A DNA stretch of 64,000 nucleotides from Bacteroidota bacterium (GTDB taxonomy: Bacteria; Bacteroidota; Ignavibacteria; UBA10030; UBA6906). The position numbers and the translations under genes were made by a program. The stretch spans positions 62,001 through 126,000 of the forward strand of contig JAHBUR010000002.1 in NCBI GenBank assembly GCA_019637975.1, given 5' to 3'. Below are positions 5,563 through 61,043 of the stretch, in pieces; the first letter of the stretch is position 1; each line of letters opens with the position of its first letter. The notes beneath the pieces are model-generated. The model had not been told where the DNA came from and made no database searches. It saw only the letters and a list, made by a program, of their open reading frames with translations.

Positions 5563-6573
5563 ATGCACAGAGTAACGCTAATTCCGGGAGATGGAATCGG
5601 CCCAAGCATTTCCGAATCAACAACAACAATCATCAAGGCAGCCGGTGTCAATATCCAGTGGGATATTGTTGAGGCCGGCCTCGCCGCTATCGACAAGTAC
5701 CGCGACCCGCTTCCTCCGAATGTCATCGAGTCGATCAAGTCAACCAAAATAGCACTGAAGGGGCCGCTGACAACTCCCGTCGGTTCCGGTTTCAGAAGTG
5801 TGAATGTTGCCCTGCGAAAAGAATTCGACTTGTACTCAAACGTCCGGCCTGCACGTTCGTTTGAGGGTGTTCCTGCCCGATATGAAGGCATTGATCTCGT
5901 CATCGTCCGGGAGAACACGGAGGAGTTTTATGCAGGTATTGAGCATTATATCGACCCGTCGCGAAGTGCGGCTGAAACGATCGGCATCGTGACGAGAATG
6001 GGATCTGAGCGCATTCTCCGCTATGCCTATGAATACGCGAGGAAACATGGACGTAAGAAAGTGACAACAGTACATAAGGCGAATATTCTCAAATATACAG
6101 GTGGATTGTTTCTTGATGTGGCCCATGAAGTCGCCAAACAATACCCTGACATTGTCTCCAATGACAAAATCGTTGACAACATGGCGATGCAGATGGTTAC
6201 CAACCCGCATCAGTTCGACGTAATCGTGACGACGAACTTGTTCGGCGATATTCTCTCCGATCTTGCTTCAGGATTGGTGGGTGGGTTGGGTCTGGCGCCA
6301 GGTTCCAATATCGGATATGATGTAGCGATTTTTGAGGCTGTGCACGGAAGCGCCCCTGATATTGCAGGGAAGAATATTGCAAATCCTTGCGCGTTGATAC
6401 TCGCGGGAGTTATGATGTTGCGTCACATCGGGGAAGAATCGGCCGCGGAGCGAATCGAAAACGCGGTCAGCACCGTGCTGAAGGAGGGGAAATATGTAAC
6501 CGCAGACCTGAAACCCGCTGCCCCTGTCAGGACGACAGAGATGACGCAGGCAATTGTCAATAAGCTGAAATAG
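5563..6573 (+). CDS. Isocitrate/isopropylmalate dehydrogenase family, probable NAD-isocitrate dehydrogenase
   Basis: A 336-residue beta-decarboxylating dehydrogenase. It carries the nucleotide/metal-site elements TLIPGDGIGP, the substrate-loop arginines (LRKEFDLYSNVRPARSFEG), RENTEEFYAGIEH, the catalytic lysine in TTVHKANILKYTGG, and the metal-binding aspartates in TTNLFGDILSDLASGLVGG. The RENTEEFYAGIEH loop and the NVRP segment resemble mitochondrial-type NAD-dependent isocitrate dehydrogenases (IDH3-like), which oxidise isocitrate to 2-oxoglutarate in the TCA cycle. A homoisocitrate or 3-isopropylmalate dehydrogenase is the main alternative; no leu or lys genes are adjacent. It is preceded by AAGGTAGTTC and followed by a terminator. 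Confidence 0.85.
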   Translation: MHRVTLIPGDGIGPSISESTTTIIKAAGVNIQWDIVEAGLAAIDKYRDPLPPNVIESIKSTKIALKGPLTTPVGSGFRSVNVALRKEFDLYSNVRPARSFEGVPARYEGIDLVIVRENTEEFYAGIEHYIDPSRSAAETIGIVTRMGSERILRYAYEYARKHGRKKVTTVHKANILKYTGGLFLDVAHEVAKQYPDIVSNDKIVDNMAMQMVTNPHQFDVIVTTNLFGDILSDLASGLVGGLGLAPGSNIGYDVAIFEAVHGSAPDIAGKNIANPCALILAGVMMLRHIGEESAAERIENAVSTVLKEGKYVTADLKPAAPVRTTEMTQAIVNKLK

Positions 6574-59941: not shown

Positions 59942-60192
59942 CAGGAGATGTTGAACGAATTGATTGATGGACATACGCCGTTTCAAGTACGAACGACGTA
60001 GCTGCCGGGGATGCATCGGGTGCGAAGCAGGTACGAAGCGGGAGCGAACGAGCTGCGAACCGGCGGCGGCGGACGGCAATTCAACAGCGTACGCTGTGTT
60101 GCGTAAACAGTGGAGGGGTCGTGACCGGGCGGAAGCACGTGTATATCATCACGCAAGCAATTGTTCTTCCGGATTTCGGGAGATGTGCAGAA
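59942..60192. other. Gene-free stretch leading into the hairpin repeats
   Basis: About 250 bases after the DUF2911 stop contain no convincing gene. The sequence is G-rich, with repeated GCGAAC- and CGAAGC-type words, and the small reading frames present lack ribosome sites and homology. It leads into the hairpin-rich repeats at 60193. Confidence 0.5.
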
Positions 60193-60436
60193 GCGGGACG
60201 GAGTCCCGCGCTACAGCGTGTAGCGCGATTCCCCGAATCGCCCCTTGCGCAAGTTCAGCCCAAACGGGGCGGGATATTACAGCCGGGGACGAAGTCCTCG
60301 GAATTCATCATCACAGAAGTTCACACAACCCTGAAGGGGTTGGATATCATCAGCGGTATCTCACCCTTTCAGGGTGATGTGGGGTTCTCGTATTTTCTGG
60401 CTTGGGACTTCGTCCCAAGCTGTAGTATCTGACCCC
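60193..60436. repeat. Long direct repeat copy A: array of triloop hairpins
   Basis: Nine short inverted repeats follow one another, most with 3-base loops: GCGGGAC/GTCCCGC (60193-60209), GCTACA/TGTAGC (60210-60224), GCGATTC/GAATCGC (60225-60241), CTTGC/GCAAG (60244-60253), GCCC/GGGC (60258-60270, imperfect), CCGGGGAC/GTCCTCGG (60283-60301, one mismatch), AACCCT/GGGGTT (60327-60341, one wobble), CACCCT/AGGGTG (60362-60376) and CTTGGGAC/GTCCCAAG (60401-60419). From 60219 it is matched by copy B at an exact offset of 395 bases, with eight differences in 218 bases by hand count. Confidence 0.85.
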
Positions 60437-60510
60437 CGCCAAAAGGTAAGGCACGGCGGGCAAGCCGGTGGGGTCGGGTGCGGACGGCCTCGTGGCTTTG
60501 CAATGCTTGA

Positions 60511-60563
60511 TGCGGGACGGAGTCCCGCGCTACAGCTTGTAGCGAGACTCTCTGAATCGCCCA
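60511..60563. repeat. Partial repeat copy: first three hairpins only
   Basis: The segment repeats the opening of copy A: GCGGGAC-GGA-GTCCCGC, then GCTACA-GCT-TGTAGC, then a degraded third stem (GAGACTC next to GAATCGC). It stops before the remaining hairpins. It shows that the three-hairpin head can occur as a separate module. Confidence 0.75.
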
Positions 60564-60587
60564 GCCTCGTTGCTTTGCATGGCCTGA

Positions 60588-60841
60588 TGCGGGACTGAGG
60601 CCCGTGCTAAGCTTGTAGCGCGATTCTCCGAATCGCCCCTTGCGCAAGTTCAGCCCCAACGGGGCGGGATATTATAGCCGGGGACGAAGTCCCCGGAATT
60701 CATCATCACAGAAATTCACACAACCCTGAAGGGGTTGGATATTATCAGCGGTATCTCACCCTTTCAGGGTGATGTGGGGTTCTCGTATTTTCTGTCTTGG
60801 GACTTCGTCCCAAGCTATAGTATCTGACCCCTTCGGGGTCA
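60588..60841. repeat. Long direct repeat copy B: array of triloop hairpins
   Basis: The head (60588-60619) is degraded. The rest is aligned with copy A without gaps from 60614 at offset 395. Stems here are perfect where copy A has errors: GCGATTC/GAATCGC (60620-60636), GCCCC/GGGGC (60653-60665), CCGGGGAC/GTCCCCGG (60678-60696), CACCCT/AGGGTG (60757-60771), CTTGGGAC/GTCCCAAG (60796-60814). It ends with one more hairpin, TGACCCC-TTC-GGGGTCA (60825-60841), which copy A has lost at its junction with unrelated sequence. Confidence 0.85.
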
Positions 60842-61014
60842 TGCCGGCAAAGGGCTGGAACGATACCCAGGTCATCGTGGACCATGACGACAACACGAGA
60901 ACATCCGGCAGACAAGATAGTGTTACTGAATGTCTGCCCGCCTGCGGTGGGGTGCGAGTAAACGGCAGGCGGACGTGACGCCCGGTTTTATATCTGCTGA
61001 AATTGTATCATGCA

Positions 61015-61043
61015 AATGCCCCGTTGCGCTACGGGGCATTTTT
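61015..61043 (+). terminator. Rho-independent terminator in the gene-free region
   Basis: A perfect ten-base stem (61015-61024 with 61031-61040), a six-base loop and a T-run. There is no protein gene within 1 kb upstream, so it would end either read-through from the DUF2911 gene or a non-coding transcript across the hairpin repeats. Confidence 0.8.

Follow-up and report, generated by a model that had tools for sequence, protein, structure and literature searches.

Tandem hairpin repeats in a Bacteroidota genome are probably transposase-less ends of a subclass-1.2 TnpA_Y1 single-strand DNA transposon family

Described systems of hairpins and Y1 transposases

Opposed hairpins that flank a Y1/HUH gene, with many gene-less hairpin copies elsewhere and inverted dyads, are known from the REPtrons and REPINs of TnpA_REP (RAYT) in E. 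coli and Pseudomonas (Nunvar 2010; Bertels 2011; Quentin 2018), and the locus described here shares these features. It also resembles the TIRtrons (TIRYT), where long, sometimes self-complementary inverted repeats flank Y1 genes and also occur alone (Di Nocera 2013, PMC3733652), and TnpA_Y1 class 3 of Planctomycetes and Acidobacteria, with atypical structures around the Y1 gene and dispersed copies of these (Quentin 2018). The latter study reported 'atypical secondary structures' around both class 3 and subclass 2.6 genes (PMC6006769); these structures and the TIRtrons are the closest published ideas to what follows. Quentin 2018 also defined TnpA_Y1 subclass 1.2, assigning it REP status 'no' and describing it as generally without the terminal secondary structures of IS200 (PMC6006769).

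The IS200/IS605 elements (IS608, ISDra2) share with the present system a homologous transposase and subterminal hairpins at both ends. IS608 has a single hairpin at each end.

One further family enters the comparison from the RNA side. Acido-Lenti-1 (RF01687; Weinberg 2010) is filed by Rfam as an sRNA, its function being listed as unknown. It is graded 'probably' RNA in a passage of Weinberg 2010 (PMC2864571), and a passage of a 2026 paper proposes that Acido-Lenti-1 ncRNAs regulate the KLIKK protease genes of Tannerella (PMC13298647). The passages found, all from the open-licence literature, hold no link between Acido-Lenti-1 and a transposase.

Anatomy of the repeat pair

The window, i.e. 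the whole 64-kb stretch of DNA analysed, contains a direct repeat pair at 60215-60436 and 60610-60831. The two copies are 222 nt long and 96% identical. They are ungapped at an offset of exactly 395, as an earlier note on this sequence had proposed for two long hairpin-rich repeats. Counting perfect Watson-Crick hairpins of at least 5 pairs with 3-5-nt loops, the density over 60190-60848 is 16.7 per kb, six times that of the rest of the window (mean 2.8 per kb in equal tiles, sd 2.0, maximum 7.6). The folding z-scores of the two copies are -8.6 and -9.6, and 0 of 200 shuffles folded equally well. Stems that are perfect in copy B and mismatched in copy A, as the note had described, are present: CCGGGGACgaaGTCCCCGG in copy B corresponds to ...GTCCTCGG in copy A, and GCCCCaacGGGGC to GCCCAaacGGGGC.

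Each 222-nt repeat is also a long imperfect inverted repeat (palindrome), and its hairpin order is therefore mirrored, H1-H2-H3|H3'-H2'-H1'. Its two halves, of ~98 nt and with three small hairpins each, lie on opposite strands and form a dyad. In a half, the outermost hairpin H1 (about GCCCC-loop-GGGGC) is followed by the linker GATATTATAG, by H2 (about CCGGGGAC-gaa-GTCCCCGG), by a spacing of ~25-30 nt, and by the innermost hairpin H3 (CAACCC-loop-GGGTTG). The halves were delimited with a covariance model, R1, for which the three hairpins were aligned from 26 ends at 16 loci beside tnpA, taken from other genomes only. In the window R1 identifies exactly four halves, forming two (-)(+) dyads (E 2.1e-14, 9.7e-13, 1.2e-9 and 1.8e-6), while the next-best match has an E of 0.39; in unit A and unit B alike, 8 nt separate the two R1 matches. 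The features are as follows.

60193..60241, (+): linker hairpins before unit A, comprising GCGGGACggaGTCCCGC at 60193-60209, GCTACAgcgTGTAGC, and the GTAG-tagged GCGATTCcccGAATCGC at 60225-60241
60249..60347, (-): unit A left half, with H1 60258-60270, H2 60283-60301 and H3 60326-60342 (R1 E 1.2e-9 in the window search; RF01687 29.6 bits at 60257-60301)
60348..60355: unit A joint, 8 nt, the position of tnpA in autonomous copies (compare contig C28)
60356..60449, (+): unit A right half, with H3' 60361-60377 and H2' 60400-60420 (R1 E 1.8e-6)
60430-60436 and 60470-60476, (+): unit A H1', split into TGACCCC and GGGGTCG, as read from the sequence
60437..60469: 33-nt insert CGCCAAAAGGTAAGGCACGGCGGGCAAGCCGGT in the loop of unit A H1', from comparison with unit B and the copies on contig C2
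60512..60636, (+): linker hairpins separating the two units, comprising GCGGGACggaGTCCCGC at 60512-60528 and the GTAG-tagged GCGATTCtccGAATCGC at 60620-60636
about 60589-60605, (+): decayed second copy of GCGGGACggaGTCCCGC within the same linker
60644..60742, (-): unit B left half, with H1 60653-60665, H2 60678-60696 and H3 60721-60737 (R1 E 2.1e-14; RF01687 40.5 bits at 60652-60696(-), above the gathering score)
60743-60750: unit B joint, 8 nt
60751..60848, (+): unit B right half, with H3' 60756-60772, H2' 60796-60814 and H1' 60825-60841 (R1 E 9.7e-13)
61014..61041, (+): intrinsic terminator-like hairpin, AAATGCCCCGTTGCGCTACGGGGCATTT followed by a T run, outside the element

The same kind of small hairpin-bearing insert as that of unit A is present exactly in the H1' triloop of copies on contig C2 (at 130.7k and 131.0k), and such inserts may represent nested elements with hairpin loops as their target. 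The 5' GT[AG]G foot of canonical REP and REPIN sequences is absent from the ends themselves, GTAG occurring only in the linkers, on the hairpins at 60220 and 60615. These belong to a second, canonical REP-like hairpin family (GTAG..CGATTC...GAATCG) that is interleaved with the units, at 60220-60241 and 60615-60636 in the window and at 5911 and 6939 of locus L035 on contig C28.

Among Rfam families, RF01687 alone gave a credible match to the region, all others scoring far below gathering. The earlier note had matched the repeats to no named element; two of the three hairpins in each half are in fact the Acido-Lenti-1 motif, since RF01687 covers H2 and H1, the outer two hairpins, together with the CTATnnTC linker. 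With a gathering score of 37 bits, the left half of unit B passes and that of unit A falls below. What Rfam files as an sRNA would here be the outer portion of one end of a transposon, the complete end having a third hairpin besides, and a partner in mirror orientation.

The ends flank subclass-1.2 transposase genes in several phyla

The repeat is multi-copy in its own genome. Searched at the DNA level, the complete draft assembly (4.25 Mb) gave 52 matches, with clusters on contigs C2, C5 and C28 and a few short matches on C3, C18 and C30, and R1 found 39 half units on C2, C3, C5, C28 and C30 (49 in the fetched stretches). The ~40-49 half units fall into five clusters, of which two, on C28 and C30, surround subclass-1.2 genes. 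On plasmids, no DNA match to the repeat was obtained, and subclass 1.2 is nearly absent from them (2 records). The note had also considered one recent tandem duplication whose pairing is due to chance, to be recognised by a lack of other copies and of covariation. Two adjacent copies of 96% identity agree with such an origin, but it is refuted by the copies elsewhere, the match to a model from other genomes, the hairpin density and the strong covariation described below, and I give it essentially no weight.

Two Y1-transposase genes (PF01797) lie among these copies: C28:26452-26793 is located inside a repeat cluster, and C30:39719-40060 has RF01687 matches on both flanks. The order on C28 is H1-H2-H3, tnpA, H3'-H2'-H1', and its hairpin sequences resemble the ones in the window; C30 is similar. 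As the C28 tnpA is enclosed by the same halves, the window unit is the same end pair minus the gene, i.e. (-)half-8 nt-(+)half instead of (-)half-tnpA-(+)half, which is the configuration of a MITE. A Y1 gene flanked by hairpins that are also dispersed in the genome likewise corresponds to the generic definition of a REPtron.

The C28 and C30 proteins (P0001 and P0002) carry the subclass 1.2 signature DHVH, WQ, YIxNQEEHH. The transposase is homologous to TnpA of ISHp608/IS608 (PDB 2a6m, E 1.2e-14), and, on the evidence of such sequence matches to the PDB, its Y1/HUH fold is settled. Membership of Y1 class 3 or class 2 was rejected because the motifs do not fit. Searching with the C30 protein reveals four Y1 genes in this genome, those on C28 and C47 being 41-45% identical to that on C30; the divergent gene on C6 has no R1 match.

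The association extends well beyond this genome. The comparison covered 80 named loci at which subclass-1.2 relatives are encoded, in Verrucomicrobia, Planctomycetes, Acidobacteria, Bacteroidota, Calditrichota, Nitrospirae and other groups; DH[VI]H is present in 69 of them, WQxG in 79 and Y...Q..HH in 79. In 57 of the 64 loci left out of R1 training, an R1 half lies within 600 bp of tnpA, and over these 64 loci the number of matches falls with distance from the gene as 127, 20, 7, 6, 5, 3, 1 and 0 per 300-bp bin. The nearest upstream half is on the (-) strand in 38 of 47 cases and the nearest downstream half on the (+) strand in 37 of 47, so that the arrangement around subclass-1.2 genes is mostly (-)half-tnpA-(+)half; 7 of the 80 tnpA loci are without an R1 match. 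A model-free comparison gives the same picture: the 0-300 bp upstream of the gene resemble the reverse complement of the downstream flank at 57/71 loci, but further out only at 5/61, 1/59, 1/51 and 1/46. In a first set of 30 loci, the same flank test gave 22/30 near the gene versus 5/28 and 2/28 farther away. Most of 30 further subclass-1.2 loci from a survey of the phylum are also matched by R1. A small control set of nine loci of other Y1 genes yielded no R1 match; eight of these nine could be typed, having NHxH and/or ...NP motifs or no Y...Q..HH. Three-hairpin ends at 57/64 independent loci contradict the published description of subclass 1.2, not the membership of the proteins.

The system also differs from those described. 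The enzyme is IS200-like and of subclass 1.2, where that of REPtrons is of class 2, and P0001 and P0002 score 24-26 bits against the NCBIfam RAYT model, whose cutoff is 80; the ends are an ordered trio of hairpins. Compared to IS200/IS605, each end has three mirrored hairpins, many dyads lack tnpA, no tnpB was seen beside the C28 or C30 tnpA, and there is no high-copy, near-identical tnpA. Class 3 is characterised by W[TA], YV[VI]xEQ and a CnGA foot, in contrast to the WQ, YIxNQxxHH and (T/A)C foot found here, and TIRtrons, set beside the present ends by their description, have RAYT-like proteins and a GGGGWSAS motif.

RF01687 is associated with the same gene. In the 80 tnpA loci it has 58 matches, at 27 loci, and for 57 of the 58 the distance to tnpA is at most 700 bp, although the zones so defined make up 140 of the 438 kb. 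Upstream, the nearest match is on the minus strand in 14/20 cases; downstream, it is on the plus strand in 17/21. RF01687 is above its cutoff in 28 of 296 genomes of the phylum, and is dispersed in several (57 matches in G165, 76 in G214). A subclass-1.2 gene is present in 23 of the 28 positive genomes and in 110 of the 268 others (Fisher p=3e-5, uncorrected for phylogeny). Among the matches listed for RF01687-rich genomes, other-class Y1 genes (PF01797 <50 bits) have no RF01687 within 1 kb. Five of the 28 positive genomes (G097, G117, G138, G295 and G306) are without a subclass-1.2 match, possibly through gene loss, assembly gaps or use of a different enzyme. Four of these five belong to a single genus (g91).

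Pairing, mechanism and turnover

Across phyla, the alignment has compensatory double changes at 15 of its 18 pairs, and pairing holds in 92.5% of cells. Covariation scores 0.45, compared with 0.14 for shuffles (0/500), and it collapses in slid controls. Copies within the source genome, in an alignment fitted to R1, show the same covariation behaviour. G-T pairs make up 1.6% (cross-phylum) and 0.8% (own genome) of standard pairs, A-T being far commoner. A G-T pair is weak in DNA and well tolerated in RNA, and structured RNAs usually have several-fold more of them; selection on DNA hairpins is therefore favoured, and covarying pairs with so few G-T suggest that the hairpins act at the DNA level. 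Several unpaired bases are also conserved, namely T and C at the hairpin feet (a (T/A)C foot), CTA after H2, and T and C in the triloops, and these are candidate recognition points.

These results bear on whether the arrays are a structured small RNA (Acido-Lenti-1) or a cis-acting RNA, lying close to a transposase gene incidentally or for its regulation. The Rfam entry, the window match above its gathering score, the grading by Weinberg 2010 and the conserved pairing agree with an RNA. The scarcity of G-T pairs does not, nor do the opposed pairs around tnpA and the (-)(+) dyads, by which each unit would carry the 'RNA' on both strands, nor does the clustering of matches beside tnpA and not beside a common regulated gene. 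The case for an RNA is weakened accordingly, and I consider it improbable. The earlier note had left the choice between a structured RNA and a mobile REP-like element; the latter fits better, the repeats being multi-copy, strongly covarying and of the same structure as the flanks of transposase genes.

The reading I favour, with good though not full confidence, is that the repeats are tandem transposase-less (MITE/REPIN-like) ends of a subclass-1.2 TnpA_Y1 single-strand DNA transposon family. In this view the repeats of the window are non-autonomous derivatives, whose mobilisation or maintenance would be supplied in trans. An autonomous copy would consist of a (-)end, tnpA and a (+)end, and the window copy of the two ends joined by 8 nt, with tnpA missing. 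By analogy with the biochemistry of IS200/IS605 and TnpA_REP, the transposase would recognise the hairpins on single-stranded DNA, and its catalytic tyrosine would cut beside them, the strand then being rejoined; cutting and rejoining at these positions could thus spread or remodel the tnpA-less dyads in trans. The C28 TnpA is the likely partner of the window dyads, judging from its flanks, which carry the same hairpin sequences. The 395-nt period would result from tandem block duplication by recombination, and since the copies of the source genome are clustered, not scattered, recombination may account for most of their multiplication.

More broadly, I lean towards subclass 1.2 being a distinct multi-phylum single-stranded DNA system with mirrored, ordered hairpin trios, and the whole of Acido-Lenti-1 its outer DNA end, not an RNA gene. 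A widespread HUH group described without an associated DNA structure hereby gains a concrete candidate substrate. In addition, a curated family labelled 'small RNA' may be the end of a DNA transposon; the RNA label has already been carried into genome papers, and if RF01687 is such an end, the proposed regulation of the Tannerella KLIKK genes needs review.

Comparison with genomes of the same genus shows that arrays and tnpA turn over within the genus, with no clean insertion in either case analysed. In the window, the element fills 60106-60990. The sister genome G001 carries nothing homologous to this segment beside either flank, homology between the two genomes extending on the left to 60105 (85%) and on the right from 60991 (86%). 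In G001 these flanks are on different contigs with different neighbours, so the site is a synteny breakpoint and not a clean empty site; R1 has no match at the corresponding G001 junctions. The earlier note had placed the repeats between a gene end and a terminator. There is indeed a terminator at 61014-61041, but its G001 counterpart stands behind another gene, and the placement therefore reflects the breakpoint. The G001 gene that precedes this terminator has a NYPNPFNPTTAIKF-type sorting tail and is absent from the window.

The C30 site has nine halves and tnpA here, versus three halves and no tnpA in the same intergenic region of G001 (C45). As halves without tnpA are present in G001 at this one shared site, gain of the gene is not polarisable against loss. 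Neither the window site nor the C30 site has a clean empty counterpart in the sister genomes, the latter being a case of array variation, and no cleavage site or excision product was seen.

The arrays could also be derived from transposon ends but no longer mobile, spread by recombination and domesticated in the manner of REPs (as terminators, mRNA protectors or genome-structure sites), with the TnpA having a host role. Consistent with this are the arrangement of the copies in tandem clusters with ~350-395-nt periods, the small number of tnpA copies in most genomes, the synteny breakpoint and the low subclass-1.2 copy number noted by Quentin 2018 (PMC6006769). Against it, copy number and tnpA presence differ between sister species at an orthologous site, and in a further genome of the genus, G002, the 36 halves are distributed among about 30 contigs. 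I regard domestication as unlikely, though a more serious alternative than the RNA, and retain transposase-less ends of a subclass-1.2 family as the preferred explanation.

Some halves of G002, e.g. at C190:29509-29704 and C30:67895-68091, are in (+)(-) order with 1-nt joints, opposite to the (-)(+) dyads of the window. On contig C28 of the source genome, a 1666-aa Cas9-like frame, identified by reading the sequence (L035:7063-12063), has its end directly beside the hairpin array and the subclass-1.2 tnpA.
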